From a virus, in IMG/VR virus record IMGVR_UViG_3300034101_004588, positions 146,957 to 210,956 of that record: a stretch of DNA of 64,000 nucleotides. The stretch is one strand, 5' to 3'. The position numbers were made by a program, and so were the translations under genes. The notes under the pieces were generated by a model. It made no database searches, had not been told where the DNA came from, and was given only the letters and a program-made list of their open reading frames with translations. This document shows, one piece after another, positions 25,735-50,628 of this stretch (position 1 is its first letter; each line of letters begins with the position of its first letter).

Positions 25735-27012
25735 TTATTGTGCTCGTTGATCTGCTCTAGCTGCGGATCCCATATCATTTAAAGTGTCGTCTATTAATTT
25801 TGCCCAATACTTGTAAGTTTGACTCTTTTTACTATTTTTCATAATAGAATCTTCCCATAAAACAGCTTCCCAATTTTCTTTATTTTGTTCTGCTAATTCC
25901 ATGGCTTGAGCCATTCTTTTGTTAATACTTTCGTAATCTGTGTCTGCAAATAGATATAACAATTTACGCAATCTTGAATTCATGTCTTCATCTGCTGCAT
26001 CTGGAGCTCTAACATTAATATATGTATGTTGTAATTCTGCTGGTAATTCTGTGTAATCTTTTGAATATATCTTTTTTCTAGTATCTATATAAGCTCTTTT
26101 TACTCTATAAGATGTAAAGTTTGTAAAATCTGAAGGACCTGCATTACGAGTAACTTGATAAATTTGCTCGTCTTCTGTAAGAGGACGATAAACAAATAAT
26201 TTTTCCAATCCTTTTAACTTTGGTTGCCATTCTTGAGAAATAACCATATTCCAATCACCAACTCTTTCACGATTGTTCAACGCATTAGTTAATCTAAATT
26301 TACCATCTCTTTGAGCGTGAATAACTATAACGTGGTTGTCATCAGATACTGGTAAGGTTTCATCATACACAAAATAAACACTGGCACTAGTATCACCGGA
26401 TCCAAATCTATAACTGTAAAATAAACTTCTTTCTATAGGATAAGAAATACACCATCCGTAGTATTTGCTGATATCTTTGCTTTCGTTTTTGGCTTCTTCT
26501 TCTTTTTCTTTTGATAGAAAACGTTTAAATAAAATACAAGAATTGGGATCTTTACCAAAATAAACATGAATTCCATTTTTCGGATCTTTGTATATTTCTT
26601 CAGCTCCGGTTTCTCCTTCTGCCATTTCAACTTTAGATGCTGCTTTTTCTGCCGGGTCTCTAAATTGATGGACTATTTTTTCTAGATCAGACCAATTATA
26701 AAATTCTACTTGAAGAGGTTGTTTTTTTAAATTTTCAAAACGGCGAACATCTTTTTGATTTCTTTCATCCGGTTTAATATCTCCACTATCTATATATTGT
26801 TGAACTAGTTCTTTAATACGATTAGATGTATTGTTGGCTGTTTTAAGTTGATCAAATCTTTGTAAGGTTGCTCGAATAGCTGTTTCTTCTACAAATGCTC
26901 CTGCTTGTGGTTTTAATCTTTTAATTTGTTGATTGAGAAACCCTTCACTGTATTCGTTCAAAATAATACCTCCATACACTTGTTCCAATAAAATTTGATC
27001 TTTGGTTCTCAT
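25735..27012 (-). CDS. head-cargo family protein with KDQILLE leader, 425 aa
   Basis: Starts MRTKDQILLEQVYGGIILNE. LLE at residues 8-10 is the predicted cleavage site. The mature part has an N-terminal helical domain and, around residues 180-270, a domain with YYGWCISYPI, SLFYSYRFG, ASVYFVYDE and HVIVIHAQRDG, an arrangement I have seen in large-phage proteins without known function. Largest single-domain member of the family here. Confidence 0.65.
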   Translation of the reverse strand: MRTKDQILLEQVYGGIILNEYSEGFLNQQIKRLKPQAGAFVEETAIRATLQRFDQLKTANNTSNRIKELVQQYIDSGDIKPDERNQKDVRRFENLKKQPLQVEFYNWSDLEKIVHQFRDPAEKAASKVEMAEGETGAEEIYKDPKNGIHVYFGKDPNSCILFKRFLSKEKEEEAKNESKDISKYYGWCISYPIERSLFYSYRFGSGDTSASVYFVYDETLPVSDDNHVIVIHAQRDGKFRLTNALNNRERVGDWNMVISQEWQPKLKGLEKLFVYRPLTEDEQIYQVTRNAGPSDFTNFTSYRVKRAYIDTRKKIYSKDYTELPAELQHTYINVRAPDAADEDMNSRLRKLLYLFADTDYESINKRMAQAMELAEQNKENWEAVLWEDSIMKNSKKSQTYKYWAKLIDDTLNDMGSAARADQRAQ

Positions 27013-27024
27013 CTATTTTAATAT

Positions 27025-27471
27025 TTACCAGTTTTGTTCATAATATTCTGCTCTGGTTAAAGATGGAGAACCTAATATATTTTCTATTCTTGAAACTACT
27101 TCTTCATCATCAATATTACAAGGACCTCCTACATGCCAATTATATTCTTCTCTTGGTATGCGTTTTTCTCTATAGACATATATTGTAACTATTAATCCGT
27201 CTTCAAACTGTATTACCCATCTAGCTAAAACCTTATCGTCTTCTGTATAAATTGGTTTACCAAATTTATCTATCAATTGTTTGTGTGTTGTTTTTACGTA
27301 TCCTTTTAAACAAGTACCAGATATTTCTATATCATTGCTATTAATTTTTTTTATCTTATAGCGATTTGAAAAGGATCTCAAAGCTTGAACTTTATTTAAA
27401 TCTGCTTCTAAAAGAGATGCATAAACATTTTTTAAGGTTTTAAATTTTTTGGGTATATTACTTTTATTCAT
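27025..27471 (-). CDS. head-cargo family protein, 148 aa
   Basis: Around residues 20-34 reads LLEADLNKVQALRSF: the LxE site followed by the family NKxxALxSF motif, here shifted about 15 residues from the start. Then the shared domain: FGKPIYT, WVIQFEDGLIVTI, and a C-terminal VVSRIENIL. It has the same WxIxFxDG domain as the units of 46170-48326, showing that the two blocks are related. Confidence 0.65.
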   Translation of the reverse strand: MNKSNIPKKFKTLKNVYASLLEADLNKVQALRSFSNRYKIKKINSNDIEISGTCLKGYVKTTHKQLIDKFGKPIYTEDDKVLARWVIQFEDGLIVTIYVYREKRIPREEYNWHVGGPCNIDDEEVVSRIENILGSPSLTRAEYYEQNW

Positions 27472-27472
27472 A

Positions 27473-27871
27473 TTAATACGAATTCCACATTTTTAACCAT
27501 TTATCATAATTTGGTTCTATTTTTCCGTCTATTACCAATTCTCTTAATACCACTTCTGCAACTTTGAAAAGGTGAGAAGTTGGAGGTATTTCTGCATCCA
27601 AACTAGTATATTCACTGTCTGAAAATCTTTTTAAACTTATTAATTCCATTTCTGGTTCTTCTAGAGCCCACTCAAACGTATACCTTGCTTCGTAATGGTC
27701 GTCTTTAGCAATAAAACTTAATATATAAATTTTATTGTCTTTATCATAATCTTCGTTTTCTATTATAAAATCCCTGCCAGGTCCTAAGTCTTTATCAAAA
27801 TCCATAAATTTTTTTAAACCTTGAATCTTATCATATTGAGATTCTAAAAGTATTTGATCCTTGGTTTTCAT
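27473..27871 (-). CDS. head-cargo family protein, 132 aa
   Basis: Starts MKTKDQILLESQYDKIQGLK. The mature part carries KDDHYEARYTFEWALEEPEM and LISLKRFSD, closely similar to 27887-28303, so the two are recent duplicates. CCTAAATA (27878-27885, minus) lies 6 nt upstream. Confidence 0.65.
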   Translation of the reverse strand: MKTKDQILLESQYDKIQGLKKFMDFDKDLGPGRDFIIENEDYDKDNKIYILSFIAKDDHYEARYTFEWALEEPEMELISLKRFSDSEYTSLDAEIPPTSHLFKVAEVVLRELVIDGKIEPNYDKWLKMWNSY

Positions 27872-27886: not shown

Positions 27887-28303
27887 TCAATAATCTGGTT
27901 TCCAAAAATGAGGCGGTATTTCTGGTTCCAGTTTACCTGCATCTACCAAGGCTTCTATCTTTTCTTCTGCGTCTATAAAAAGTTTTGAACCAGGTGTTAT
28001 TTCTGCTTCTAGATAATCATAATTTTCATCTGCATATCTTTTTAAACTCAAAAGTTTTATAATATGATCTGGATTCCAACCTTCGTATTTCCACCAAAAA
28101 TTATATCTTGCTTCATAATAATCATCTTTAGCTTTAAAGGATACCACATAAATTTTTGCTTGATAATTCGGAAATTCTGTGTCTTTATATAATATTTGAA
28201 AATGAGAAGGGTCTCCTAAATCCGATTCTCTTTCGGCAAACTTTTTAAGAGCTAAAATTTTATCTGTAGCTTCTCTTAATAATTGTAAATCCTTTTTATT
28301 CAT
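27887..28303 (-). CDS. head-cargo family protein, paralogue of 27473-27871, 138 aa
   Basis: Start at ATG 28301-28303 (MNKKDLQLLREATDKILALK), overlapping the upstream stop by ATGA. LLRE gives an LxE site. Shares YVVSFKAKDDYYEARYNFWW and LLSLKRYAD with its neighbour. The domain is not recognised beyond the family. Confidence 0.65.
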   Translation of the reverse strand: MNKKDLQLLREATDKILALKKFAERESDLGDPSHFQILYKDTEFPNYQAKIYVVSFKAKDDYYEARYNFWWKYEGWNPDHIIKLLSLKRYADENYDYLEAEITPGSKLFIDAEEKIEALVDAGKLEPEIPPHFWKPDY

Positions 28304-28788
28304 GGACCATACCACCTAGTTGATGCTGTGAAATAATCTAAAAAGTCATTGTAATCAGGTTCATTATAAAATGTTGTCAAATAATCATAAGCTTTACTTC
28401 CTAATTCTTCTGTTAAATCTTCAGACCAATTTTTTTTAAATTTTTCATAACCGCCATAATTTTCTAAAGTATCTTTGGTTGCTTTATCGTACAAAGCTTG
28501 GTGTAAGAATCCTTCATACTCTTGTTGTATTTCTCGAGAAGACAAATGGTCATAATAAAAATCTACATTTATTGGATTTAATTCTATATTTCTTTTTACA
28601 TGGTCTAGATATTCTGGTAAAATAGACATATACAATTCTCTGGGAACACCCATGGAAGAGTTTTCATATTCGTCTATGGTTAGTTTTTTAACATGATCTA
28701 AAACATTAAGCTCTTTATTGGCAAATTGTTTAAACGCTTGTATCTTGTCGTATTGAGCTTCTAAAAGTATTTGGTCTTTATATTTCAT
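28300..28788 (-). CDS. head-cargo family protein, 162 aa
   Basis: Starts MKYKDQILLEAQYDKIQAFK, with QFANKE following; leader and KxxAFKQF motif both present. The remainder is helical and acidic (YGGYEKFKKNWSEDLTEELG). Start overlaps the upstream stop by one base (TAATG). Confidence 0.65.
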   Translation of the reverse strand: MKYKDQILLEAQYDKIQAFKQFANKELNVLDHVKKLTIDEYENSSMGVPRELYMSILPEYLDHVKRNIELNPINVDFYYDHLSSREIQQEYEGFLHQALYDKATKDTLENYGGYEKFKKNWSEDLTEELGSKAYDYLTTFYNEPDYNDFLDYFTASTRWYGP

Positions 28789-29129
28789 TAAACAAATAAT
28801 TCTACAACATCTTTAATATCTGGAATTATCATTTCTATATCATCTTGGTCTATCTCTTTTCCTTCTTTATCATAAAGAGGAGTTTCTAAATATTTTTGCG
28901 AAGATACCCAGTTTCTATAAAAATTATCAAATTCTGGTGTAGATAAAAATCCAGCAAATGTTTGTATAGCAGAATTTAATTTATCTATATGTTCATTGTA
29001 CTTGCTAATCATAAGACCGGCTTCTCGGCGATCTTTTTCATCTTTAGAAAAAGATTTTAGTCCTTGAATTTTTAGATTAGTTATTTCTTCTGCAGCTTCT
29101 TGTAATAATTGTAAATCTTTTTTTGTCAT
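28788..29129 (-). CDS. head-cargo family protein, 113 aa
   Basis: Starts MTKKDLQLLQEAAEEITNLK, then IQGLKSFSKDEKD. LLQE supplies the LxE site. Helical mature part with no motif. ATGA overlap with 29126-29446. Confidence 0.62.
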   Translation of the reverse strand: MTKKDLQLLQEAAEEITNLKIQGLKSFSKDEKDRREAGLMISKYNEHIDKLNSAIQTFAGFLSTPEFDNFYRNWVSSQKYLETPLYDKEGKEIDQDDIEMIIPDIKDVVELFV

Positions 29130-30239: not shown

Positions 30240-30716
30240 TTAAGAGGTTATACGAAACGCAAATTCAACACCATCATTAGATTTAACTATTTTAAAACCA
30301 TTTTGTTTATAAAAAGACATTAAATTTTTATGAGATGATTTGTTTTGCCCTGAAGAAATTTCTCCCGGAGATAATGCCATAAGGGTTCCTGAGGGATATT
30401 GCATGGCTAAAGTATTAATGATCTCTGAACCCCTACCTAATCCTCTTTGTGTAGAAAGTATTCTTAATAATTGAATCCATATATAGGTAAATTTTTTTGG
30501 TAGTTTTAAAGACCTTAGATATTTTGCTACCGGATCATTTTTGGGATCATCAAAATAAAAAAGATCAATAACCTCAGATATTGTCAGGTTTTCAGCAACG
30601 TCCCAATCGAAGTCTGCTATTTTTTTACCATCTTCTCGAACTTCTTCTCGAGACATATCAAATTCTAAAGACTCTAGAATTTGTTTTATTTTATTATTGA
30701 ACCGATTCATTTTCAA
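30240..30716 (-). CDS. GNAT-like acetyltransferase with protease-site leader, 158 aa
   Basis: N-terminus MKMNRFNNKIKQILESLEFD contains ILE, a plausible (I/L)xE cleavage site. C-terminal half shows the acetyl-CoA loop RGLGRGSEIINTL at about residue 92 and the GNAT ending NLMSFYKQNGFKIV. It overlaps 30694-31062 by 23 nt within the cargo operon. If packaged, it would be an injected acetyltransferase that modifies host proteins early, like T4 Alt in concept. Confidence 0.6.
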   Translation of the reverse strand: MKMNRFNNKIKQILESLEFDMSREEVREDGKKIADFDWDVAENLTISEVIDLFYFDDPKNDPVAKYLRSLKLPKKFTYIWIQLLRILSTQRGLGRGSEIINTLAMQYPSGTLMALSPGEISSGQNKSSHKNLMSFYKQNGFKIVKSNDGVEFAFRITS

Positions 30717-31062
30717 ACCAATAAATCATTCCATTAGGACCTTCTTCCATTTTTAGGTCATCATGTTTGATTCCTACTTTAGAAAGAAGATTGCCTAATC
30801 TTTCTCCAGTCGCTTGAAAATCAAATAAAGAATAATCCGTATTAAAAATTTGTTTATACATTTCATCTAAATCAGAAAACTTTTCTTGGTTATCATAAAT
30901 TTTCTTCTTAGAAAAAAGACTATTGCCGAACATTTCTTTCAAACGAGAAGCAAAGGTTTCAGACAATTCATCATAAGCTTTCATCTGAACTTTTTTCTGT
31001 TCTTTGGCTTGGTTAATTTTACCGTAAGTCTCTTCTAAGAGTATTTGATCTTTATTTTTCAT
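30694..31062 (-). CDS. head-cargo family protein, 122 aa
   Basis: Starts MKNKDQILLEETYGKINQAK. Helical and charged; contains two FSDLDEMYK / LFDFQATGERL segments and ends in a short strand. No motif beyond the leader. Second gene of the unit headed by 31067-31318. Confidence 0.62.
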   Translation of the reverse strand: MKNKDQILLEETYGKINQAKEQKKVQMKAYDELSETFASRLKEMFGNSLFSKKKIYDNQEKFSDLDEMYKQIFNTDYSLFDFQATGERLGNLLSKVGIKHDDLKMEEGPNGMIYWFENESVQ

Positions 31063-31066
31063 AAAA

Positions 31067-31318
31067 TTATTCTTTAGATTCTGTATATTTTAGATGTCTT
31101 AATATATCTTCAAAGACCTCGACTACATTATTAAAATTACCCCAATAACCTAATCCATCTTGATTCTCGGCCTCATCAATATATTCATTAAAAGCTTCCA
31201 TGACCTTATTTTTAAAACGCCAGAGTTCTTCTTCTTGAAAATCTTGTAAGGCCTGTAGTTTTGGATTTACAATTTTATCCATTTCCGCTTCCAAGAGTAT
31301 TTGATCTTTAGATCGCAT
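31067..31318 (-). CDS. head-cargo family protein, 83 aa
   Basis: Starts MRSKDQILLEAEMDKIVNPK, then LQALQDFQEEELW, a complete leader plus KLxALxxF motif. Short acidic helical remainder. First gene of the minus unit and divergent from 31379-32032. Confidence 0.62.
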   Translation of the reverse strand: MRSKDQILLEAEMDKIVNPKLQALQDFQEEELWRFKNKVMEAFNEYIDEAENQDGLGYWGNFNNVVEVFEDILRHLKYTESKE

Positions 31319-31378: not shown

Positions 31379-32032
31379 ATGGCTTATATCAATACCGATA
31401 TTCCTTTATTCTCTTGTCTGCTAGATACTAGCTTTCTTTATGATAAAGACCCAAGAACCACCCAAGAATATCTTAAAGTAGAGGTCTTTGGATTTACTTC
31501 TCTTAATCGAAGATGCGGTCTCTTCTCGGTTATGTCAGAAATGGGTAGTGTTCATACTCGAGTACCTCTTCATTACCTTATAGCCGAGGACACGGATAAT
31601 CCCTCTCATTACCCGCTCGACTGGTTGCAACTTTGGGATTCCTATTCTCCTTATGTGCAATGTATAAGATATGAGTACCTCAAAAACCTCACTTGTAAGA
31701 TCTGCCTGAAAGATAGGAACTATGAGTCGGCTCGCTATCTCATGACCTTTGATTGGTGCTATGGACCGGAATTCACCACCGGACAAAGTGAAAATCCGGG
31801 AGGTCATAAACAAGGACATCTACTAAAGGGCGATCACGGACAATACTATATACAACCGGGTAATAGAATAATCTGGAGAGACGGAGGAGCCTGGATTGGT
31901 AAAGAATTACAAGGGCATGAAAAATGGAAAGTCTTTTCTAAAGAGTTCTCTTGTGAACAAACAGGTTCTCGATGGTTTGCCGGAGAAGAAGAATTACACT
32001 TCTACCAATTTGAAAAGAATAAAGACAGGTGA
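31379..32032 (+). CDS. unknown protein, 217 aa
   Basis: Start at ATG 31379 (MAYINTDIPLFSCLLDTSFL) rather than the upstream frame, since that one lies in the promoter. Contains CKICLKDRNYESARYLMTFD, YGPEFTTGQSENPGGHKQGH and QYYIQPGNRIIW. Isolated plus-strand gene between two minus blocks, with a nearly leaderless -10 box. Not recognised. Confidence 0.65.
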   Translation: MAYINTDIPLFSCLLDTSFLYDKDPRTTQEYLKVEVFGFTSLNRRCGLFSVMSEMGSVHTRVPLHYLIAEDTDNPSHYPLDWLQLWDSYSPYVQCIRYEYLKNLTCKICLKDRNYESARYLMTFDWCYGPEFTTGQSENPGGHKQGHLLKGDHGQYYIQPGNRIIWRDGGAWIGKELQGHEKWKVFSKEFSCEQTGSRWFAGEEELHFYQFEKNKDR

Positions 32033-32242
32033 TATAAAGATAAAGGGGTACCTATATAAAGGGGTAGGTACCGGGATTGCCCCGAGACCCGGGTATCGAT
32101 TATTCTCGTCTATTATTGTTTTTGAACTGCCGGGGTCCTAGGATACCGCCCGTTGTCGTATTAACTTGCTTTTCCCTAGAATCCGATTTATAATTCCGCG
32201 CCTAGGGTTTCTTGGTCAAGGGGTTCGAACCCAGGTGACCTT
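32033..32242. other. intergenic region with a T-arm-like palindrome
   Basis: 210 nt between convergent genes. AAAGGGGTA occurs twice at the start. At 32214-32240 an imperfect inverted repeat GGTCA...TGACC surrounds the perfect palindrome GGGTTCGAACCC, which looks like the T arm and part of the acceptor of a tRNA with the rest missing. No gene found. Confidence 0.4.
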
Positions 32243-32542
32243 CTACAGCTCGTACCCTTCAGACTCTTTCTTAGACTGGTGTTGATCCACGTGCCTGGCT
32301 AGCCGGCGAAGCTCTTGGCGGCACATCTCCTTAGCTTCTTCATTAGCCGAGGACTCCAGAACCGTCATACAGATATTCACCGCCTCTTCCCAAGAAGGGG
32401 TTAGGTCAATGACTCGACGATTGGTGTTGGCAGGAAGAGCTTGGAAGGCTTCGGCCATCTCTTCATTAGCTTCGGACTCGGTGACATAGACTTCTTCACA
32501 TTGCACTTGAGTGTTGAAGTCATCGGTGTAGTTCTTATTCAT
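32243..32542 (-). CDS. small acidic phage protein, 99 aa
   Basis: Core VIDLTPSWEEAVNICMTVLE followed by ANEEAKEMCRQELRRLARHV, a small helical domain that recurs in phages and is of unknown function. The leader has GTTTCCCCCAAATAGTCTC and TACACTAA, a member of the early-type leader family. Confidence 0.7.
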   Translation of the reverse strand: MNKNYTDDFNTQVQCEEVYVTESEANEEMAEAFQALPANTNRRVIDLTPSWEEAVNICMTVLESSANEEAKEMCRQELRRLARHVDQHQSKKESEGYEL

Positions 32543-32690
32543 AACAGTTATTAGTGTAGAGACTATTTGGGGGAAACACCAGACTTTCTTTTTATTCTCT
32601 CAAAGTAATTTTAACGATGAAAGTAATCCTGCCTTTGTATTATTTTATACCGTTGTATTAAATTGCGGACTGCTATGAGAGATAAAAGAA

Positions 32691-32722
32691 CCCTCCAGCT
32701 TCCTATTACGGAAGCTGGAGGG
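32691..32722 (-). terminator. 13-bp hairpin terminator
   Basis: CCCTCCAGCTTCC-TATTAC-GGAAGCTGGAGGG, perfect 13-bp stem, 44 nt downstream of the stop of 32767-33132, followed on the minus strand by TTCTTTTATC. Very stable. The 32543-32690 gap otherwise holds only the leader of 32243-32542. Confidence 0.8.
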
Positions 32723-32766
32723 GGTTTCGTTGACACGGGTTCCTCTACTCAGAGGACCGAGAGTGT

Positions 32767-33132
32767 TTACTTCTTCCGCTTCTTCTTAGCGGCTTTCTTG
32801 ACCGGAGCCTCTTCAACCGCAACTGTCACCATCTCCTCTTCAATCTTAGCCTCGACCGCTTCTTTGACCTTAGGGTCAGCGGCGATGACTTCGAACTTGG
32901 GCTTGGAGACTTTGGCCGAGGAGACTTTCTCTTCGGTGTACTCTACGCCGATCCCGAGGAAGGATCCTTTGCCGTTGGAGGCGGTGATCCGACGAAGCGC
33001 TCCGAAGACGGGACGATACTCGGCGGTGATGTTGTATTCGCTAGCGAGAGTGTCGATAACGAACTTCGGGGTGACCGTTTCATTCTTCATCAGAATGTCG
33101 CGGATGGCTTTGCTCATTGGGTTCTTTTCCAT
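32767..33132 (-). CDS. unknown protein with Lys-rich tail, 121 aa
   Basis: N-terminal domain MEKNPMSKAIRDILMKNETV with FVIDTLASEYNI resembles a small winged-helix or cohesive helical domain. The C-terminus is Val/Glu/Lys low complexity ending KKAAKKKRKK, a nucleic-acid-binding tail. Probably binds DNA or RNA. Confidence 0.65.
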   Translation of the reverse strand: MEKNPMSKAIRDILMKNETVTPKFVIDTLASEYNITAEYRPVFGALRRITASNGKGSFLGIGVEYTEEKVSSAKVSKPKFEVIAADPKVKEAVEAKIEEEMVTVAVEEAPVKKAAKKKRKK

Positions 33133-33224
33133 ATTTTTATTTTATTGGTTGTTTCTCTTGAGAGGTGGTCTCTCTTGATTGTTTATATCTTAAAGGTTTT
33201 TCTCGGGACTGGCAACCGGGTTTT

Positions 33225-33416
33225 TTAAATTTCGAAAGCCTTGGCATACCCCGACACTCGCGGCGAGAAGCAACGATCTTCGTTGATGATGCCATTGAGG
33301 TCATGTCCGATAGTGGAGACTATCGCCGCGTACTTCTCCTTAGAGCTGTACGTGGGGTGGTTGTGAACAAACCTGACATAAGCCAGGAGGTCTTTGAGGA
33401 AGGTTTTATCTTTCAT
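33225..33416 (-). CDS. unknown small protein, 63 aa
   Basis: Start at ATG 33414-33416 (MKDKTFLKDLLAYVRFVHNH). Helical. The leader CTTCCCCCTTATTTCCTCC is of the early type and overlaps the end of the upstream gene. Confidence 0.6.
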   Translation of the reverse strand: MKDKTFLKDLLAYVRFVHNHPTYSSKEKYAAIVSTIGHDLNGIINEDRCFSPRVSGYAKAFEI

Positions 33417-33454
33417 AGTCTTTATTATGGAGGAAATAAGGGGGAAGAGCCACC

Positions 33455-33658
33455 TCAAATCTCCTTCAGATGTTTGGGTTTCTTGAGAGAGAAGTTCTTG
33501 GGTTTCTTCTTGAGGACATTGAGGTAGTCCAAAGTATCGTCAATCAATTGATAGATAGCTTTTATCTCCTCGGCTTTGGCTTTGGGGTCTTCTAGCATGT
33601 TGGCTAGACACTGCAAAGCCTCTTGGACTCGTTGGATCTCTTTCTCGATGCGATTCAT
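33455..33658 (-). CDS. small coiled-coil protein, 67 aa
   Basis: MNRIEKEIQRVQEALQCLAN then a second helix and basic end. All-helical, probably oligomeric. Start codon region abuts the stop of 33659-33802. Unknown role. Confidence 0.6.
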   Translation of the reverse strand: MNRIEKEIQRVQEALQCLANMLEDPKAKAEEIKAIYQLIDDTLDYLNVLKKKPKNFSLKKPKHLKEI

Positions 33659-40068: not shown

Positions 40069-40404
40069 TTAATCTGTATCTTTAATGAACTTCATAAGCT
40101 GTCTACCCCAATCAAAGAGGTTTTCCGGAAATTCTTTAATAGTTTTCATACTATAGTAAAGATTAAATTCTTCAGGGGTCTTTCCAGGTTTATTTTGTAA
40201 TTGTTCTAAGACGTCTTCAATCCTTTGATTAATTTCTTCTTCTTGACCTATCAAGACCTTTTCTATATCTAATATAAGCCCAAAAACCTGATTGATCTTA
40301 CGGGAGAGCTCCATTATATCTTTTTCTTTATTAGCAAATTCTTTAAAGGCATCAACCTTATTTTGCACCTGATTATAGGCTTCGGATAAACTTTTATTAT
40401 TCAT
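40069..40404 (-). CDS. head-cargo family protein, 111 aa
   Basis: Starts MNNKSLSEAYNQVQNKVDAF, then KEFANKEKD: the KxxAFKxF motif with a shortened leader. Remainder is a helical bundle. Overlaps the upstream gene by 8 nt. Confidence 0.62.
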   Translation of the reverse strand: MNNKSLSEAYNQVQNKVDAFKEFANKEKDIMELSRKINQVFGLILDIEKVLIGQEEEINQRIEDVLEQLQNKPGKTPEEFNLYYSMKTIKEFPENLFDWGRQLMKFIKDTD

Positions 40405-40984
40405 TGGTCCATTTATCTATCTTTCTTAACATTTCGGAGAGTTTATGAATTCCTTGGAAGTCATCTCCTAAAATACTATATTCATTTTCTGATCCCCAAT
40501 GAGCCTTACGATAGGCAGGGGGCATATGGTTTAGATTAAATCCTAGGTCTTTGGCATTAGGAGCCCATAAGAGAAATTCTACTTCATTTTTAAGTAAGCG
40601 AGCCAGGATCTCTACTATAACATAAGCCTTATAGGTTCCTTCTAAACCAAAGATATGAAAGTCTCTTTTTTGATTCATTTCAAATTTATAGTTAGTATCT
40701 TGAGGGGTAGGTTTTAAAGGATCGGTATATATCAATAAAGGTTTAGCAGTTGCTCGATTAGGAATTTCCCAGGCCCATACATCATCGAAACCGGACTCTT
40801 GAGTAATTTCATCGTTCTCGGTTATATATTTGTGGGGTCCCAATACTCTTTCTAGATCGGCAATGGAAGCTTTAATGGTCAATTCATTTTTATATTGGTC
40901 TTTAATTTCTTGTTTAAAGAAATTTTTAAAGCCTTGAGCCTTAACATTAGATAAGGTTTCTTCTACAAGTTGATTAAATTTCAT
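40397..40984 (-). CDS. head-cargo family protein, 195 aa
   Basis: Starts MKFNQLVEETLSNVKAQGFK, with LVEE as the (I/L)xE site and KAQGFKNFF as the family motif. The mature part contains VWAWEIPNRATAKPLLIYTD and YVIVEILARLLKNEVEFLLW, a mixed alpha/beta domain that I do not recognise. Confidence 0.63.
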   Translation of the reverse strand: MKFNQLVEETLSNVKAQGFKNFFKQEIKDQYKNELTIKASIADLERVLGPHKYITENDEITQESGFDDVWAWEIPNRATAKPLLIYTDPLKPTPQDTNYKFEMNQKRDFHIFGLEGTYKAYVIVEILARLLKNEVEFLLWAPNAKDLGFNLNHMPPAYRKAHWGSENEYSILGDDFQGIHKLSEMLRKIDKWTNE

Positions 40985-40998: not shown

Positions 40999-41412
40999 TT
41001 ATTCTCCGGGTGGAAAGAGAACCTCGTCTTGTAAGGGTTGTTCTAAACGAAATTCCCAGTGATAGGTTTTCTTGCCTAAAGTTGGATTATTAGGTTCGGT
41101 GTAAAGTTCATTCTTATATCCATAGTCATTTAGAGCCTGAGATATGTTTCTTAATTCTCGCACTTTAATCTTAATACGTTGATCAACTCCTATGGCAAAG
41201 AAATCTTCATCAATCCAATCAAATTTTATATAAGAAGATAAATGAGGAACTGTTTGGTTTACTATGTTCTTTATAACTTTGCTTTCGTTATTAGATTCTT
41301 CCGCAGTTCTTTTAGAGGTGTTTTGGGAAAAACTTTTTAAAGCCTGGAGCTTATCATTCTCTAATACCGTTTGATAAACTTCTTTTAAAATTTGTAAATC
41401 CTTATCACCCAT
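40999..41412 (-). CDS. head-cargo family protein, 137 aa
   Basis: Starts MGDKDLQILKEVYQTVLEND, then KLQALKSFSQN: both the KDLQxL leader and the xLENDKL junction are present. Mature domain is short alpha/beta. CCTAAATA (41419-41426, minus) lies 6 nt upstream, so expression is late, unlike the neighbouring early-type genes. Confidence 0.65.
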   Translation of the reverse strand: MGDKDLQILKEVYQTVLENDKLQALKSFSQNTSKRTAEESNNESKVIKNIVNQTVPHLSSYIKFDWIDEDFFAIGVDQRIKIKVRELRNISQALNDYGYKNELYTEPNNPTLGKKTYHWEFRLEQPLQDEVLFPPGE

Positions 41413-42292: not shown

Positions 42293-42655
42293 ATGAAATT
42301 TAATTTATTGTGGGAATCTTATCTTAAAGGGTTAAAAAATAATTTAGAAGATTTTAAATTGTTTATCGAAAAGAGATCTACAGGAGCCAAAAAGATTGCC
42401 GAGGCTTCGGCTAAGAAGGGGGAATATGCTACACTGACCGCTATTCACTTTAAAGCCAAAGAGGTTCCTTATAACTTTTGTCTTCGCCACTACAAAGCTG
42501 AAGATTCTAAATTGGTAGAAGATAAAGCCGATGAATGTTTTACTAAATTAAAGTCTTGGAAGAAGATGTCTCAAAGAGAATTTCAGGCAGTGATGGGGGA
42601 ATTAGAGGCTTATGGAGAGGTTTATATTAGATCAAAAGAGACAAAAGGACAATAA
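42293..42655 (+). CDS. unknown protein with cargo-like start, 120 aa
   Basis: Starts MKFNLLWESYLKGLKNNLED; LLWE near residue 8 is an LxxE variant, and KGLKNNLEDF echoes the KxxxLKxF motif. Remainder is Lys-rich helical with TAIHFKAKEVPYNFCLRHYK. It lies on the opposite strand to the cargo block, so membership is uncertain. Confidence 0.6.
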   Translation: MKFNLLWESYLKGLKNNLEDFKLFIEKRSTGAKKIAEASAKKGEYATLTAIHFKAKEVPYNFCLRHYKAEDSKLVEDKADECFTKLKSWKKMSQREFQAVMGELEAYGEVYIRSKETKGQ

Positions 42656-43579: not shown

Positions 43580-44143
43580 TTAAGACCTTGATATACTCAA
43601 TATTTGTGCCTGAGGTATGAGTTTTTCTATTTTAATCTTGGTTCTAGCTCTTTGCTCTTTTTCATCTTCTTCTGATTTTATCCACATCGGCCAAGGTTTA
43701 AGAGTACCAAAGTGAATATAGAATTTTTTTGGTGATGTTATTGTTTTAAAATAATTTAATACCCCTTCTTCGGATTCAAATTGAAAAGGAGGTATTTTAG
43801 ACGAAGTATATATAGATCCTAAAGAATTATCTTCAAGTTCAAAATACCAAGAAACTGTGATAACGGTAGAAACTATATTTTTATTTTTGCTATCAAAAAG
43901 TCGAGTGTGATGTACATCATAAAAAGTAACATCTGTTTCACTAGGATCTCCGAGACTCTCAAAAACATTTTTTGGAATTACTTCAATAGTACTTTTCATT
44001 TGAGGGTTTATCTCAAACTCATCTCTAGTAAATTTACGTTTAATCCTGGTGTAAGAAAAAAAAGATTGTAAACCTCTCAACTTATCATTTTCATTGATAG
44101 AATGGTAAGTTTTTAATAAAGATTGTAGGTCTTTGTTATTCAT
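43580..44143 (-). CDS. head-cargo family protein, 187 aa
   Basis: Starts MNNKDLQSLLKTYHSINEND, then KLRGLQSFFSY; INE before NDKL is an (I/L)xE site. The mature domain has SLGDPSETDVTFYDVHH, VITVSWYFELEDNSLGSIYT and a C-terminal MWIKSEEDEKE, i.e. a version of the WxIxFxDG domain (WYFELEDNS). Overlaps the next gene by 4 nt. Confidence 0.67.
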   Translation of the reverse strand: MNNKDLQSLLKTYHSINENDKLRGLQSFFSYTRIKRKFTRDEFEINPQMKSTIEVIPKNVFESLGDPSETDVTFYDVHHTRLFDSKNKNIVSTVITVSWYFELEDNSLGSIYTSSKIPPFQFESEEGVLNYFKTITSPKKFYIHFGTLKPWPMWIKSEEDEKEQRARTKIKIEKLIPQAQILSISRS

Positions 44144-44793
44144 CCGTGTATTAGTCTTCTAAACATACCAGCATATTCATCTAAATAATCTGGCAATAAT
44201 TCTAAATTCATGGCATTTTCAAATTCTTTTAATTCTTGTGGAGTCAATGTTCCTTCATTATAACCTGGAGATAAATTTTCAATAGCACTGTTCATATTTG
44301 AGACCATTTCTTGTTGATGTTTTTTTAATATTTTATAATTTTTATCTAAATGCTTTTGCATGTTTTTAACATCCTCTGCAAATTGTGATATTTCTTTATT
44401 GTTTTGTGCAAAGCTTTTTAATCCTTCAAGTTTATTATTTTCTTCTATTGTACCTTCTAAAGTTTTTTTAAGTTCTTCTGCTGCGTCTTCTAAAACTCTT
44501 ACAAAGCCATAAATGTTATCTGCATTAGATTTAGCATCTTTTGAAGCTTCAATTTCATTTTTTAATACTCCACGAAGCCAGGCCATATATTCTTTCTCTT
44601 GAAAGTCATCATCATAAAGTTCAGAAAGAAAATCATCGAATTTATGAAAGAAATCTACAATTCTGTTTTGAATGTATCGTGTTCTTTGTTCGAAATTTTC
44701 TTGTTTACTAAAACTTTTGAGTGCCTGAAGTTTATCATTTTCATTAATCATTTGATAAGCTTTACCTAGAGATTGTAGATCTTTATCTTTCAT
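44140..44793 (-). CDS. two-unit head-cargo family protein, 217 aa
   Basis: Starts MKDKDLQSLGKAYQMINEND and KLQALKSFSKQ. A second junction IEENNKLEGLKSF occurs at about residue 117-129, so cleavage after IEE would release two helical pieces of about 95-100 residues each. Both units are all-helical and lack the WxIxFxDG domain. Confidence 0.68.
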   Translation of the reverse strand: MKDKDLQSLGKAYQMINENDKLQALKSFSKQENFEQRTRYIQNRIVDFFHKFDDFLSELYDDDFQEKEYMAWLRGVLKNEIEASKDAKSNADNIYGFVRVLEDAAEELKKTLEGTIEENNKLEGLKSFAQNNKEISQFAEDVKNMQKHLDKNYKILKKHQQEMVSNMNSAIENLSPGYNEGTLTPQELKEFENAMNLELLPDYLDEYAGMFRRLIHG

Positions 44794-44803: not shown

Positions 44804-45322
44804 TTAACGGGTTTTTTGTTTATTTTTAAAAACAATTCTATCAATACGTTCTTGTATGTCTTTTGCTATCTCGCCAAGTTCTTTGTTTTGTATAGAAGGA
44901 TCGGTTGCTCCTTTATATCTAAAATATACTCTATAACTTATATCACGATAATCATCTCGATAATCTTCGTCTTCATCGCGAGGCAATATAAACTTTTTTG
45001 CTAGGTAATGTTCCAACCAAAAAGGATCTATGTGGTTTGTGCTTATAGCCATTTTTACATTATCTGCAAATTCAATATACCAAGATATTGTTCCATATTT
45101 CCAATCAAGACCACGGTGATATTCATAATGTGAAATTTCATTTGGAGGGCCAAATATATCTGCTATTCGAGTTACATCGTGATGAAAATTTTCAACAAAA
45201 TAAGAATCTTTATATTTTTTAGGATTAAATGTACCTTTGACCTGAAAACGCAAAACGTCATAGGTATAAAAATCTTTAAATCCTTTTAATTTTTTAGCTG
45301 CTCTATTATCTTGATTTTCCAT
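44804..45322 (-). CDS. head-cargo family protein, 172 aa
   Basis: Starts MENQDNRAAKKLKGFKDFYT: the KLKGFKDF motif is present but the leader lacks a clear (I/L)xE. The domain contains FGPPNEISHYEYHRG and TISWYIEFADNVKMAISTNH, a clear WxIxFxDG member. TAATG overlap with the upstream gene. Confidence 0.67.
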   Translation of the reverse strand: MENQDNRAAKKLKGFKDFYTYDVLRFQVKGTFNPKKYKDSYFVENFHHDVTRIADIFGPPNEISHYEYHRGLDWKYGTISWYIEFADNVKMAISTNHIDPFWLEHYLAKKFILPRDEDEDYRDDYRDISYRVYFRYKGATDPSIQNKELGEIAKDIQERIDRIVFKNKQKTR

Positions 45323-46173
45323 TACAGTTTTAAAAGCGTTTGTAATCGGCTTACAACGTCTTGATACTTATTTGCTGGAGAAACTCCAACCCACCAATCT
45401 GTAGGTTCATCTTCTAAAAGATCAAAGTTGTTGCGGGTTAAGTCTTCATCGTCGTCATGTTCTTTGGTGACAAATCCATACATATGAACAAAGGCTCCAT
45501 CATTAAATTCTATATACCAATCAGCCTTAGCTTGATCGGTATCAAAGTAAGCGTCAATATCTCCTTGATAGTCTAAAGAATTAGGAGTCGGATTTATATC
45601 TGACATCTTATCCATCATATCTTCATAACTTACTCCCCCAATAAAAAATTCGGTAGGGCTCATGTCATCTTTTGCTTCTAAGGCTCTTTCTTTCCATTCT
45701 TTATAACTTAAAAATTGAAAGTTTTGAGACATTTTAAAAGATTTTAAACCTTCTAATTTACTTTCTGATATCTGTTCCGGCAATGTTTGTTCTAGATGTT
45801 CACTATAATCTTTAGATATTTTCTCTGGACCAATAACAAACCATTCCAAGATTTCATTTTCTAGCATTTGATCTACCGACAAAGCTAATACAGAGGCGAT
45901 ATAAATTTTTCCTCCGTTGGTAAAGGTTATTTCCCAAGCAATTTTAGTATCTCCTCCTTTAGTTTTATCTATTGAAGGTTCTACTCCTTTAAGATAATTT
46001 TTTAAAATAGGATAGGTAGCAGTAAATTCAAAAACTCCTTCTTTTATTGAAGGGTCTTTAAGAACCAAATCCCATAGATTTACTGGTTTAACTTTCTCTA
46101 TATCAAATCTATTAGCAAAAGACTTTAAAGCGTCTAACTTATTATTTTCTTTTAGATATTGCTTAAAGTTCAT
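45322..46173 (-). CDS. two-unit head-cargo family protein, 283 aa
   Basis: Starts MNFKQYLKENNKLDALKSFA (LKE site). Unit 1 has IAWEITFTNGGKIYIAS; a second junction QISESKLEGLKSF at about residue 135-147 (ISE site) precedes unit 2 with ADWYIEFNDGAFVHMY and VVSRLQTLL. Two tandem copies of the same domain separated by a cleavable linker. Confidence 0.7.
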   Translation of the reverse strand: MNFKQYLKENNKLDALKSFANRFDIEKVKPVNLWDLVLKDPSIKEGVFEFTATYPILKNYLKGVEPSIDKTKGGDTKIAWEITFTNGGKIYIASVLALSVDQMLENEILEWFVIGPEKISKDYSEHLEQTLPEQISESKLEGLKSFKMSQNFQFLSYKEWKERALEAKDDMSPTEFFIGGVSYEDMMDKMSDINPTPNSLDYQGDIDAYFDTDQAKADWYIEFNDGAFVHMYGFVTKEHDDDEDLTRNNFDLLEDEPTDWWVGVSPANKYQDVVSRLQTLLKL

Positions 46174-48326
46174 ATTATGTTTAGAGGTATATTATTTATA
46201 TTAAATTTTTCTGTGACCTCTTCTCTTTTTTTATTAGACCAAACATCAAAAGAATAATTTTGATCGTAATCTATATTTGAACCTTTGGCGTGAGTTTTAA
46301 AAATAGCAATTAAGGTCCCGTCTCCAAATATTATTCCCCACCCTGTATTAAATCTATAGTCCATGCGAAAGTGGGGATAATGAAACACTGTACCTAATCT
46401 TTTTTCTAATTGGGGGTAGGAACTATTGATTTGAAAGGCAAAATATTTATATATTTCCGGAGCCAATCTATCCGGATTAACTATTTCTATAATTTTATTA
46501 CTTTTTTGAAAAGCTTTTAATCCTTCTAGTTTATTACTTTCCTCTTGCACATACACTTCTGAATTTGGAAACATAGAGGATATTCTATTTTTTAAATCTG
46601 GTTTACTTGTTGTTTTTGCTTTCGATTTTTTTGATGGAATATAAACATACCATCTTTCATTTGCAGTTTCTAAATCATAATTAAAATGGTTTTGTCTTTG
46701 CTGTGTATTTTTTAAATAATCCATCATATTACTATTGAGACCTGGTGTAATTATACATTTTAAACCGTCTTTAAATGTAAATGCCCATAATACATATTCA
46801 AATAAAGATTGAGAACTAGTATCCCATTTCCAAGGATCGAAATTGCCTGCAGGAAGATTAAGTTTTTGTGGTTCTCCAAATTTGTTTTTAACTTCTTTTA
46901 AATTAGATACAAAAGATCCCAAACACTCAAATCCCGCATCAGAAAAGTTTGGGTCTTTAGAAATTTCAAATTGTTGAGTATCTAAAAATTGTTTAAATCC
47001 TAATATTTTATTATTTTCTTTTATAATTTGTTTGTTGAGAATGGTTTTTATTCTTTCAACTACATCTAAAGCATTTTGTTCATCCTGATCATTAGCTACA
47101 TAAACATCCCAAGGATGATCTTCATCCGGATCTAATTCTCCAAACATTTCCATAGCATCTTCATTGGTTAATCCTTGTAAAATAACTTTATTACCATCAC
47201 CAAACTCTATACCCCAATTGTAAATAATTGTGTCACCGTTACGAGGATTGACATCTCTTTCAATTCGCGGTTCTCCAAATTTAGATTTTAGATTGTTTAT
47301 CGAAGCATAAAAGTCATCTGTCGGATCTGCGTGCACGTAATTATCAAACCTGTATTCATTATTAATATTTTTTTCCCAATTTTTAAGAGTTTGTTGGTCT
47401 ATTGATCTGAATTGCAATTTACTAAAAAAACTTTTTAAATTTATTAATTTATTATTTTCTTCTATATTTCTTCTAGTCCAAGGCACAACATCTAAATTTA
47501 TTTTTGTTTGTCCTAATATAAATTTAAGACGATCTGATAAATCTTCTTTTTCTTCTGCCCCTTCATAAGTTCCATAAACAGTCCATTTGTCGCTAAAATA
47601 AACAGTTATATCTGCTTTAGAAACCGATCCTGTCTTTAAATAACGATCGGTTACATCTTTTGGAATATAGTTACTGGTGATATACATTGCCTTGCCATCA
47701 GCAAAAGTAATAACCCACATAAAAGCTGAATAAGTGGTATTTGGTAAAGTTTCTACAAAAGGTTTACCAAACAATTGAACTATTTCATTATAATTTTTAA
47801 AAAACTGTCCCATCATTGTAAGATTAGTTTTAGGTAAATCTTTTAAACCCGAGAGTTTAATTATTTTATAACGATTATAAAAATTTTTAAATCCTTGTAA
47901 TTTATTTTCTTTTAAAAGTTTACCACCCTTTTCTTTTATAGCTTGTTTTATTCTTGCAATGTAATCTTTTGGATTCATACCAGATACCGTCCAATAAGTT
48001 ATTTGTTCTAGATTTTTCTTTGCGTTTATGCCAAAAGGTTTTATTTCTTTTAAAGCAGATACAGAAGCCTTTGCTCCGTCTTTAAAAGTAACCAACCATA
48101 TCCAATCTGTTTCATCAAACCCTATTTTTTTTTCTTTTGGAGGTTTACCAAAAGTTTTTAATAAAGCATCATAAGAAACATGAAATCCTTCTACTCTATT
48201 TTCTTGAGAAGGATACATTGGTTGTAAAAAATCACTATATTCTTCCGGTGAATAATCATTTGAAACAAATGCTATTCCGTGAGAAGCTGAAAAATCTTTT
48301 AAAGCTTTTAATTTAAAATTATTCAT
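46170..48326 (-). CDS. five-unit head-cargo polyprotein-like protein, 718 aa
   Basis: Five tandem units begin at about residues 1 (MNNFKLKALKDF), 138 (LLKENKLQGFKNF), 290 (IEENNKLINLKSF), 437 (IIKENNKILGFKQF) and 596 (QEESNKLEGLKAF). Units have an FGxP element, a WxxxFxDG strand pair (WLVTFKDGAK, WVITFADGKA, WGIEFGDGNK, WAFTFKDGLK, WGIIFGDGTL) and usually a C-terminal helix. Each internal junction has a Glu in an (I/L)xE-like context, except the last (VQEE). Parsimonious reading: tandem duplication of a packaged protein, cut apart by the prohead protease. Confidence 0.75.
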   Translation of the reverse strand: MNNFKLKALKDFSASHGIAFVSNDYSPEEYSDFLQPMYPSQENRVEGFHVSYDALLKTFGKPPKEKKIGFDETDWIWLVTFKDGAKASVSALKEIKPFGINAKKNLEQITYWTVSGMNPKDYIARIKQAIKEKGGKLLKENKLQGFKNFYNRYKIIKLSGLKDLPKTNLTMMGQFFKNYNEIVQLFGKPFVETLPNTTYSAFMWVITFADGKAMYITSNYIPKDVTDRYLKTGSVSKADITVYFSDKWTVYGTYEGAEEKEDLSDRLKFILGQTKINLDVVPWTRRNIEENNKLINLKSFFSKLQFRSIDQQTLKNWEKNINNEYRFDNYVHADPTDDFYASINNLKSKFGEPRIERDVNPRNGDTIIYNWGIEFGDGNKVILQGLTNEDAMEMFGELDPDEDHPWDVYVANDQDEQNALDVVERIKTILNKQIIKENNKILGFKQFLDTQQFEISKDPNFSDAGFECLGSFVSNLKEVKNKFGEPQKLNLPAGNFDPWKWDTSSQSLFEYVLWAFTFKDGLKCIITPGLNSNMMDYLKNTQQRQNHFNYDLETANERWYVYIPSKKSKAKTTSKPDLKNRISSMFPNSEVYVQEESNKLEGLKAFQKSNKIIEIVNPDRLAPEIYKYFAFQINSSYPQLEKRLGTVFHYPHFRMDYRFNTGWGIIFGDGTLIAIFKTHAKGSNIDYDQNYSFDVWSNKKREEVTEKFNINNIPLNII

Positions 48327-48625
48327 ATACCTTCAAAAAATCCGTTTCTTTCTAAAAAACTATTTAAAATTTCTTTAGCTCTTTCTCTTTCTCCATACCA
48401 ATGTACACCATATAGCTCATTTTCTGGATCATGAATTGTATTATGTACGAATTGCCATAACACCTGCCAATGACTAGATCCTTGAATGACTGTTCTTAAA
48501 TTTAATTGTTCTGGTATATGTTCTCTCATGAAGTCTAAAATCTTTTCATCCAATTCTGAATGTCTGGAAAAAGATTTTAATGCAGACAATTTATTATTTT
48601 CTTTTATATATTTTTTAAAATTCAT
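48323..48625 (-). CDS. head-cargo family protein, 100 aa
   Basis: Starts MNFKKYIKENNKLSALKSFS (IKE site), nearly identical to 45322-46173 in its first 19 residues. The mature part is short and helical (HWQVLWQFVHNTIHDPENEL). ATGA overlap with the polyprotein gene. Confidence 0.65.
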   Translation of the reverse strand: MNFKKYIKENNKLSALKSFSRHSELDEKILDFMREHIPEQLNLRTVIQGSSHWQVLWQFVHNTIHDPENELYGVHWYGERERAKEILNSFLERNGFFEGI

Positions 48626-48628: not shown

Positions 48629-49057
48629 TTATCTTTTATTTAATAAATGATCTAATCGTTCTAAAATTTCTTGTTCTCTTCCTATTGGACCAGTTACTTG
48701 TGCTATAACTGGGCTGTCTGGAATAACATTATTTTCCTCATCATAATGCAAATCATGAACTTCAGTACTTAATATAACTTTAACACCATCGTTAAATTCA
48801 ATCCCCCATTCTAAAAATTTTGCTCTACCTGGTCCTTCGTCTGTGAAATCGGGTTCTCCAAATAAATCTATCAAACTATCATATCTATCTACAACCATTT
48901 CTGTCATATAATAATCCATGCCCAACTTTTCTATATCTTTTACTGACATAGAAAAATAAGGTTTTGCATCAAATCTTTTTTTTACCATATATGCTCCTGC
49001 AAATTGTTTAAATGCTTCTAATTTATTTTCTGTATAATATTTTAAAAAAGTTTTCAT
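48629..49057 (-). CDS. head-cargo family protein, 142 aa
   Basis: Starts MKTFLKYYTENKLEAFKQFA; the site is YTE rather than (I/L)xE. Domain has FGEPDFTDEG, FLEWGIEFNDGVKVILST and ILERLDHLL, a clear WxIxFxDG member. Confidence 0.66.
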   Translation of the reverse strand: MKTFLKYYTENKLEAFKQFAGAYMVKKRFDAKPYFSMSVKDIEKLGMDYYMTEMVVDRYDSLIDLFGEPDFTDEGPGRAKFLEWGIEFNDGVKVILSTEVHDLHYDEENNVIPDSPVIAQVTGPIGREQEILERLDHLLNKR

Positions 49058-49434
49058 GTTAATATATTAGTTAATCTTTCAATCACTTCTTTTGATTTAT
49101 TTTCTGGAGCAGATACACTATAAGCATAAAATTCATCTCCTCTCGACAAATATCTTAACACGGATAATGTATTATCTCCAAATTCTATAATCCAGAGAGG
49201 ACCCATCATGCCGTAAGCTCCGGTTATTGGTTCTCCTAAAAGTTTTTTAACATCTTTATAAGGAGGAGCTTTAGGAAAAACAATTGTTTTATAATTAGCT
49301 AATATATTAGGATCTGCTAATTCGGGATATATTCTGTTAATATCCGCTCGAGTTCTCATCCCTTCTTTGTTTGCTGCTATAATTTGATTGGCTTTAACAA
49401 ATTGTTGAAAACTTTTTAATTTATTTTTATCCAT
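49054..49434 (-). CDS. head-cargo family protein, 126 aa
   Basis: Start at ATG 49432-49434 (MDKNKLKSFQQFVKANQIIA), overlapping the previous gene by 8 nt. No leader before NKL, as in 46170-48326. Domain has LLGEPITGAYG, LWIIEFGDNTLSVL and VIERLTNIL. Confidence 0.65.
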   Translation of the reverse strand: MDKNKLKSFQQFVKANQIIAANKEGMRTRADINRIYPELADPNILANYKTIVFPKAPPYKDVKKLLGEPITGAYGMMGPLWIIEFGDNTLSVLRYLSRGDEFYAYSVSAPENKSKEVIERLTNILT

Positions 49435-50233
49435 GACGTAAAAAATATTCTCTGTCTGCATCAAATTCTTTACGTTCGTAATTAAAATTTGCTATCATAT
49501 CTTTAAAAGGTATGAATATTTCATCACCTTCTTCTGCTTTACGAAATGCTTGTCTGGGTTCTATTTTGCTCCAAAGCATATGAAGACCGGTAGGTTTAAC
49601 TTCTAATATTTCCCCAGTAACACTATACTGATCTGCAACTACTTCTCCGTATTGAGCATAGCTAAAACGTTTACGACCATATATAGTTAAATCCAAATCA
49701 ACAGCGTCTTTAAAAAGATTGTAAAGATCGTAAGAATTTACTAATCGTGAAGAATATTGTAAATTATCATATTTTCGAATTATGTCTCGTCTCTTTTCAT
49801 CACTAACAAAAGATTTTAAACCTTCTAGTTTATTGTTTTCGGATATTTGTTTTAATCCTAATTTATTTAAAATTGTGTTTAAAATATCTTCAGCGTCTTT
49901 ATAAGCATTAACAATTATAGATATGCCTTTATCTTGTTCGTTTGTTAAAAAAACTAAACGAGAAGGTGTTCCTCCCATTTTAAAATCCCAAATATAAGAT
50001 TTATAGTCTCTTGGAATTTTTTTTGAAACCCAAGATCCTCCATGTCCAAATAAATCAGCCAATTGACTTGGATAAATTGTTCGGTCTTTTGGTATTTTAT
50101 AACCAGCTACGGTTTCATTTTGAACCGAAGGATAAGAAGTTTTGAAGTCTCCTGAAGGAATGTATTCAATTTGATTAAACGATTTTAAAGCTTTTAATTT
50201 ATCATTTTCTAATAGATATTGCTTAAAGTTCAC
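49427..50233 (-). CDS. two-unit head-cargo family protein, 268 aa
   Basis: GTG start at 50231-50233; MNFKQYLLENDKLKALKSFN (LLE site). Unit 1 has YIWDFKMGGTPSRLVFLTNE, a diverged WxIxFxDG core. A second junction QISENNKLEGLKSF (ISE site) at about residue 131-144 starts a different, beta-rich unit (VVADQYSVTGEILEVKPTG). Confidence 0.67.
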   Translation of the reverse strand: MNFKQYLLENDKLKALKSFNQIEYIPSGDFKTSYPSVQNETVAGYKIPKDRTIYPSQLADLFGHGGSWVSKKIPRDYKSYIWDFKMGGTPSRLVFLTNEQDKGISIIVNAYKDAEDILNTILNKLGLKQISENNKLEGLKSFVSDEKRRDIIRKYDNLQYSSRLVNSYDLYNLFKDAVDLDLTIYGRKRFSYAQYGEVVADQYSVTGEILEVKPTGLHMLWSKIEPRQAFRKAEEGDEIFIPFKDMIANFNYERKEFDADREYFLRHG

Positions 50234-50241
50234 ATTTCTAT

Positions 50242-50628
50242 TTATTCTTTGATCTCCGGAGTCATCGCATATATATTATAAAGATACAAGACATATTCTT
50301 TAAATTGATCTTGTAAAGAATAAATTGTTAGTTCTTCGAAAGGGTTTGTAGGTTGCATTTCTAAAATACCTTGCAAAGATTCTATAAAAGATAGCATTAT
50401 AGAATCATATCTTTTTGGTCCTATTAATTCTTTTTGTTCTTTGGTGACCATTGATTCATAAGACAAATAGGATTTGACTTGTTCTTGATCTATTTTACCA
50501 TCTTTAACAATATCAATGGGTTTGTTTTCGATAAAAGATTTTAAAGCTTGAACTTTTGGTTCTATTTGTTCTTGAAACACTTTGTCTTCTTTAACAAAGT
50601 CTTTAAAAGCTTTAAACTTTTTTAACAT
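50242..50628 (-). CDS. head-cargo family protein, 128 aa
   Basis: Starts MLKKFKAFKDFVKEDKVFQE, then EQIEPKVQALKSFIENKP: two KxxALKxF-type motifs 20 residues apart with IEP/IEN between. All-helical remainder. It heads the second cargo block, but no strong late octamer is visible upstream. Confidence 0.63.
   Translation of the reverse strand: MLKKFKAFKDFVKEDKVFQEQIEPKVQALKSFIENKPIDIVKDGKIDQEQVKSYLSYESMVTKEQKELIGPKRYDSIMLSFIESLQGILEMQPTNPFEELTIYSLQDQFKEYVLYLYNIYAMTPEIKE

Follow-up and report, generated by a model that had tools for sequence, protein, structure and literature searches.

Two gene blocks of a T4-like virus record suggest an expanded set of internal head proteins with capsid-targeting leaders

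The stretch of DNA analysed here (the window, 64,000 bases) is the final 64 kb, positions 146957-210956, of a 210,956-base T4-like virus record (IMGVR_UViG_3300034101_004588); positions below are those of the window unless marked as record positions. A total of 264 genes was called on the whole record and scanned for two short elements, an N-terminal leader and the motif KLxALKSF. Twenty-three window genes carried a leader of the form MKxKD[QL]xLLE (class A) or MNFKxYLxE (class B) and/or the motif. Eleven starts were of the class A MKxKD[QL] type (16774, 27012, 27871, 28303, 28788, 29129, 31062, 31318, 41412, 44143, and 44793) and three were of the class B type (46173, 48625, and 50233), all on the minus strand. 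Looser leader forms were MKFNQLVE (40984, minus), MKFNLLWE (42293, plus), and MKTFLKYYTE (49057, minus). A position weight matrix (PWM) scan of the predicted genes gave 27 copies of KLxALKSF in 19 genes, with scores of 15.6-25.6 bits. The matrix was seeded from these same copies, and the informative part of the result is their confinement: every copy fell in 27.0-31.3 or 40.1-50.6 kb and none elsewhere in the record, the best matches outside the blocks scoring below 12 bits, equal to shuffled proteins. The census thus bears out the original prediction of more than twenty such genes in two blocks with an outlier at 16010. Searches of the window proteins singly in IMG/VR, together with Pfam and PHROGs scans, gave nothing useful, and for this reason the mature parts remain unnamed; the GNAT fold proposed at 30240 had no Pfam match at E<=0.01. 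The genes are as follows (an arrow marks the putative cut).

16010..16774, minus: 254 residues, outlier gene, class A leader MKNKDHILLE↓RVYNEM (open reading frame (ORF) and leader match; no Pfam family)
25735..27012, minus: 425 residues, class A, MRTKDQILLE↓QVYGGIILNE↓Y, two (I/L)xE sites (homolog in relative L111 has a like leader)
27025..27471, minus: 148 residues, SLLE↓ADLN, KVQALRSF helix, and FGxP-WxIxFxDG beta domain (AlphaFold2 (AF2) model, helix 8-36)
27473..27871, minus: 132 residues, MKTKDQILLE↓SQYDKIQGLKKF (leader and motif scans)
27887..28303, minus: 138 residues, MNKKDLQLLRE↓ATDKILALKKF (leader and motif scans)
28300..28788, minus: 162 residues, MKYKDQILLE↓AQYDKIQAFKQF (leader and motif scans)
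28788..29129, minus: 113 residues, MTKKDLQLLQE↓AAEEITNLKIQGLKSF (leader and motif scans)
30694..31062, minus: 122 residues, MKNKDQILLE↓ETYGKINQ, without KLxALKSF (leader match)
31067..31318, minus: 83 residues, MRSKDQILLE↓AEMDKIVNPKLQALQDF (leader and motif scans)
40069..40404, minus: 111 residues, MNNKSLSE↓AYNQVQNKVDAFKEF (motif scan and site position)
40397..40984, minus: 195 residues, MKFNQLVE↓ETLSNVKAQGFKNF (leader and motif scans, site position)
40999..41412, minus: 137 residues, MGDKDLQILKE↓VYQTVLENDKLQALKSF (motif scan and site position)
42293..42655, plus: 120 residues, MKFNLLWE↓SYLKGLK (homologs with other leaders)
43580..44143, minus: 187 residues, MNNKDLQSLLKTYHSINE↓NDKLRGLQSF (motif scan and site position)
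44140..44793, minus: 217 residues, two segments each headed by the motif: N-terminal MKDKDLQSLGKAYQMINE↓NDKLQALKSF, and TIEE↓NNKLEGLKSF within the chain at residue 121
44804..45322, minus: 172 residues, KLKGFKDF without an (I/L)xE leader, FGxP-WxIxFxD domain
45322..46173, minus: 283 residues, two domains, MNFKQYLKE↓NNKLDALKSF and internal QISE↓SKLEGLKSF at residue 139
46170..48326, minus: 718 residues, candidate polyprotein of five domains, with KLxALKSF at residues 5, 142, 293, 440, and 599
48323..48625, minus: 100 residues, MNFKKYIKE↓NNKLSALKSF (leader and motif scans)
48629..49057, minus: 142 residues, MKTFLKYYTENKLEAFKQF, degenerate site YTE (motif scan)
49054..49434, minus: 126 residues, leaderless, starts MDKNKLKSFQQF (motif scan)
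49427..50233, minus: 268 residues, two domains, MNFKQYLLE↓NDKLKALKSF and internal QISE↓NNKLEGLKSF at residue 135
50242..50628, minus: 128 residues, KFKAFKDF at residue 4 and KVQALKSF at residue 25, without (I/L)xE

The window leaders were about 8-22 residues long and ended in (I/L)xE; T4 gp21, the prohead protease, cuts after L/I-X-E (PMC9026906). Such a site preceded 13 of the 18 N-terminal motif copies, against 3.0 expected. The motif follows the predicted cut and, rather than belonging to a removed leader, is probably retained. Beyond what had been described before, KLxALKSF recurred inside four multidomain proteins (seven internal copies), with up to five motif-headed domains in one. In six of the seven, (I/L)xE lay at most two residues before the motif (TIEE↓NN, QISE↓S, LLKE↓N, NIEE↓NN, IIKE↓NN, and QISE↓NN; the exception was VQEESN). 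Within 46170-48326, LLKE↓N, NIEE↓NN, and IIKE↓NN preceded three internal copies, and the fourth had VQEE, which has no I/L. Farther upstream of the internal copies the residues were not conserved and the MNFKQY part was absent, as would be expected if a polyprotein needed one targeting signal and many cuts. In an AF2 model of 45322-46173 of low confidence (predicted local distance difference test score (pLDDT) 68), the internal site adjoined coil and a low-confidence linker. Proteins that have (I/L)xE↓N(N)KLxALKSF within the chain are thus probably polyproteins from which single domains would be cut free.

The head genes, which were to be sought outside the window, were indeed found there. An S77 (gp21-type) prohead protease was encoded at record positions 13115-13786 (PF03420, E 2e-29, match span 13151-13642), and a gp23-type major capsid protein (MCP) at record positions 14979-16442 (PF07068, E 9e-94). 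The closest cultured relatives of this MCP were T4-like phages (about 34% identity); its propeptide cut is predicted at QERWCIEE↓A, residue 60, and CIEE↓ was kept in two relatives. Two further candidate head genes were noted.

Record 14029-14916: scaffold-like ORF between the protease and MCP genes, outside the window
58743..60653, plus: gp20-like portal candidate, 636-residue ORF, judged by eye with no family search

The starts of the block genes were A-rich and without Shine-Dalgarno sequences, a Shine-Dalgarno-like tetramer occurred in 10 of 99 leader genes of relatives, and one leader-gene homolog was found in Flavobacterium phage immuto. Because of the A-rich starts without Shine-Dalgarno sequences and this homolog, a Bacteroidota host is a reasonable inference.

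To relate the leaders to those of other viruses, a degenerate DNA pattern for MKxKD[QL]xLLE, with the residues past 10 unconstrained, was run on IMG/VR and matched 105 stretches. In 102 class A proteins, the parts after residue 25 formed 63 clusters mutually unrelated by BLAST. The continuation past residue 10 often read like EAYxKI(L)xE, and in 35 of the 63 representatives (I/L)xE ended at residue 18 (9), 19 (15), or 20 (11), with none ending at residues 15-17 or 21-27. This second site lies outside the search pattern; shuffling over residues 14-26 gave a mean of 14.4 and a maximum of 25. The spacing to it shifts by one or two residues while the site is kept, and homology between the proteins stops there. 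Pfam matches among the leader-bearing relatives were GNAT, poly(A) polymerase/tRNA nucleotidyltransferase (PolyA_pol), HD, PARP/ADP-ribosyltransferase-like, and DUF5661. The class B leader also headed other unrelated proteins in relatives. Run on a 257-Gb collection of genomes from bacteria and archaea, the class A pattern had 27 matches, which were chance or unrelated families, none with the leader continuation; the class A leader is a module widespread among viruses. All eight leader contigs longer than 125 kb (five class A, three class B) carried gp23, and all five class A contigs of this size carried the S77 protease; a 124-kb contig of class A, which may be a fragment, had neither. The relatives with the MKxKDQxLLE leader lacked KLxALKSF, which as an exact pattern had no match in IMG/VR and is private to this lineage at that level. 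The view that so many such genes are peculiar to one phage did not hold, as at least 11 class A leader genes were found on the 49.9-kb contig of one relative (IMGVR_UViG_3300035670_000315), and SPN3US has a 20-member paralog family (B) of head proteins (PMC5694885). A search of the literature found no description of such a leader family, most subscription journals being outside its coverage.

The leaders were also compared with T4. In a ranking of 236 T4 N-termini by profiles built solely from environmental leaders, the T4 proteins known as gp21 substrates or as part of the prohead, ten in all, came out high (Mann-Whitney p 0.003 for class A and 0.001 for class B). With the class A profile, gp21, gp23, gp22, and gp24 were among the first 9; with the class B profile, gp21, gp24, IPI, IPII, IPIII, Alt, and gp22 were among the first 32. 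According to genetics of IPIII, residues 4 and 7 serve targeting and residues 8 and 10 processing (PMC9026906). When MNFKQYLKE is aligned on the cut, its F, Y, L, and E stand at the same distances as these residues, and class B fits the pattern of the T4 capsid-targeting sequence (CTS): like IPIII (MKTYQEFIAE), MNFKxYLxE has aromatic residues at P7 and P4, I/L at P3, and E at P1. Class A does not fit the IPIII targeting pattern at its first site; at the second site, Tyr stands at P7 in 15 of 34. As a separate observation, gp61.1 (NC_000866.4, 18966-19130), which starts MKTFKEFIKE↓D, matched the class B profile best among the T4 proteins; it may be an internal head protein not yet recognised as such.

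The same mature domain was seen with different leaders. Of the homologs of the 42293 (plus strand) protein, those at seven other loci had leaders of the MKNKDQILLESIYNKILLE↓ type, a further one began MKFDLLVE↓SF, and the one in Flavobacterium phage immuto began MRLLELLRE↓AK; a single mature domain is thus found behind three leaders, every one with (I/L)xE. In immuto, other apparent leaders, for example MKKQILSEQFRRMQKLAGIITE↓S, lie beside this homolog (11184-12139). The FGxP-WxIxFxDG domain of 27025-27471 and the polyproteins had solo, leaderless homologs in three relatives (L072, L088, and L095). The leaders behave as interchangeable modules. A Foldseek search with the AF2 model of 27025-27471 (pLDDT 88) gave no solved relative at E<=0.001, its matches being uncharacterised viral proteins only.

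These findings suggest, with a probability that we put at roughly two in three, that the genes make up an enlarged internal-protein system of the T4 kind, with capsid-targeting propeptides. Each protein would be brought into the prohead core by its short N-terminal leader, the gp21-type (S77) protease would cut after (I/L)xE at the leader end, and the mature protein would be freed inside the head and delivered with the DNA. Mature proteins would retain a common amphipathic N-terminal helix, KLxALKSF, directly after the cut; speculatively, it may anchor cargo in the head or help ejection. We infer packaging, cleavage, ejection, and host action of these proteins. The likeness to T4 capsid targeting in the original prediction is supported by several independent tests: the protease and gp23 genes are in the record, relatives have a second (I/L)xE and are associated with gp23, one domain swaps leaders, and the leader profiles resemble T4 gp21 substrates. 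Several of the genes, however, have no site. The ADP-ribosyltransferase-like and GNAT cargos of the relatives' leaders count as further support. T4 Alt, a packaged ADP-ribosyltransferase, is comparable. We regard as tentative, and rather doubtful, the further step that packaged polyproteins of up to five domains (718 residues) are cut internally into KLxALKSF-tagged pieces, so that one head would deliver about 30 proteins.

Several points weigh against a T4-style system. The predicted site near the gene starts held for the 13 copies given above and failed elsewhere: (I/L)xE was absent from the N-terminus of four motif genes (44804, 46170, 49054, and 50242), and 48629 has YTE. The five-domain protein 46170-48326 begins at KLxALKDF without a leader, a gap that the model leaves unexplained. 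The site is short and frequent (0.015 per residue in these proteins), the paralogous motif copies are not independent, so that probabilities drawn from these are optimistic, and the search pattern itself dictated the first LLE in class A. AF2 makes leader and KLxALKSF one helix, placing the cut inside a predicted helix. A wider CTS-like regular expression was mildly enriched at the N-termini of the record (8 observed, control mean 2.7, maximum 7), and T4-type promoter signals failed to separate the blocks from other (structural) genes. Finally, the KDQ leader had no match in cultured phages by tblastn, a search of limited sensitivity with a 20-residue query; a 298-residue leader-bearing protein likewise had no match there.

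The alternative that survives best, an unlikely one in our estimation, is that leader and KLxALKSF together form a docking helix or shared adaptor tag that recruits unrelated proteins to one partner, whether inside the virion or elsewhere, no proteolysis being involved. The model of 27025-27471, in which helix 8-36 spans the putative cut and KVQALRSF before the beta domain begins, gives the two as one confident helix, and KLxALKSF is the most widely shared element, present even where (I/L)xE is absent. However, a docking helix explains neither the sharp but shifting position of (I/L)xE at residues 18, 19, or 20 in relatives nor the site directly before internal copies, and it leaves unexplained why leader-bearing relatives have no KLxALKSF. 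We give still less credence to the proposal that the proteins are packaged and cleaved as components of the prohead core or scaffold, like T4 gp67, gp68, and gp22, without being delivered to the host. Judged by sequence, several of them are small and rich in helix, and the top nine T4 N-termini of the class A profile include gp22 along with gp21, gp23, and gp24; yet the number and diversity of the mature parts and the enzyme-like domains in relatives (GNAT, PARP/ADP-ribosyltransferase, PolyA_pol, and HD) are unlike core proteins. An explanation at the DNA level, by which the common 5' ends would be promoters, sites of recombination, or products of recent duplication with no protein function, is very improbable and already disfavoured: the genes are clustered and paralogous, and T4 internal-protein genes are poorly conserved among related phages (PMC9026906), but same-codon identity at conserved residues equalled that from genome codon usage (KLxALKSF, 0.662 vs 0.664 in 1499 pairs; KDQ leaders, 0.633 vs 0.623 in 109 pairs), so that the DNA has diverged while the peptide was kept, which speaks against an RNA signal, a site of recombination, or genes duplicated recently, and the upstream sequences showed no strong common motif.

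With capsid targeting preferred, the genes resemble those of T4 IPI, IPII, IPIII, and Alt in their short leaders ending in (I/L)xE, unrelated mature parts, and accompanying S77 and gp23 genes. They differ from T4 in number (about two dozen against four) and in having two leader classes, a conserved KLxALKSF after the cut, and multidomain proteins with internal sites. Many paralogous head-internal protein genes per phage, some of the head proteins being processed by protease, are also a feature of SPN3US and other phages of the phiKZ type. SPN3US propeptides, however, mostly exceed 100 residues and have AxE (PMC5694885, PMC10052503), a form that the short window leaders with (I/L)xE do not take, and short shared leaders are not reported for SPN3US family B (PMC5694885, PMC10052503). 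In P1, an N-terminal signal of DarB targets this anti-restriction protein to the head, 30 residues sufficing for a reporter (PMC9024508). The window leaders would act similarly, but the P1 Dar proteins have no common leader by BLAST and a one-leader gene set is not reported for P1. A further parallel is found in uncultured T4-like viruses, where the same class A leader heads unrelated proteins, several per contig, but without KLxALKSF.

Elsewhere in the record, CTS-like starts outside the blocks were seen in g187 (9099, plus, MNKFLKLVLEILNE↓T), g179 (5104, minus, MSKFNNILEE↓Y), g180 (5315, minus, MDTKFDRFYNQVIEE↓A), and g203 (19213, minus, MNLNNLIKLVLEE↓K), which suggests further head-directed proteins. 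Over all N-termini of the record, a combined P7-P1 regular expression gave 5 matches outside the blocks (control mean 2.4, maximum 8), and because this enrichment is weak we claim no genome-wide CTS set. Between the two leader-gene blocks, the stretch at about 32000-39000 has a GC content of 0.39-0.47, against about 0.31 elsewhere, and a repeated element, TTTCCCCC(G/T)AAT, upstream of minus-strand small genes (8 matches with at most one mismatch, 1.65 expected). It looks like an inserted module carrying its own upstream signal.

Taken together, the system has good sequence support as a larger, partly polyprotein-like variant of T4 capsid targeting. Phage proteins delivered with the DNA act before phage gene expression, so that such proteins are likely first-line counter-defence and take-over factors. 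To our knowledge, few such co-delivered proteins are known, most of them from T4, P1, and giant phages. In T4, IPI blocks a host restriction enzyme (PMC9026906) and IPIII is required on strain ECOR17 (PMC9391042). A readable tag enables sequence search, and the leader alone flags dozens of unrelated candidate delivered proteins in uncultured T4-like viruses. If the interpretation is true, an unusually large protein set would be delivered together with the DNA; if the internal sites are cut, the head protease would also process cargo polyproteins, and KLxALKSF would be a new retained tag.

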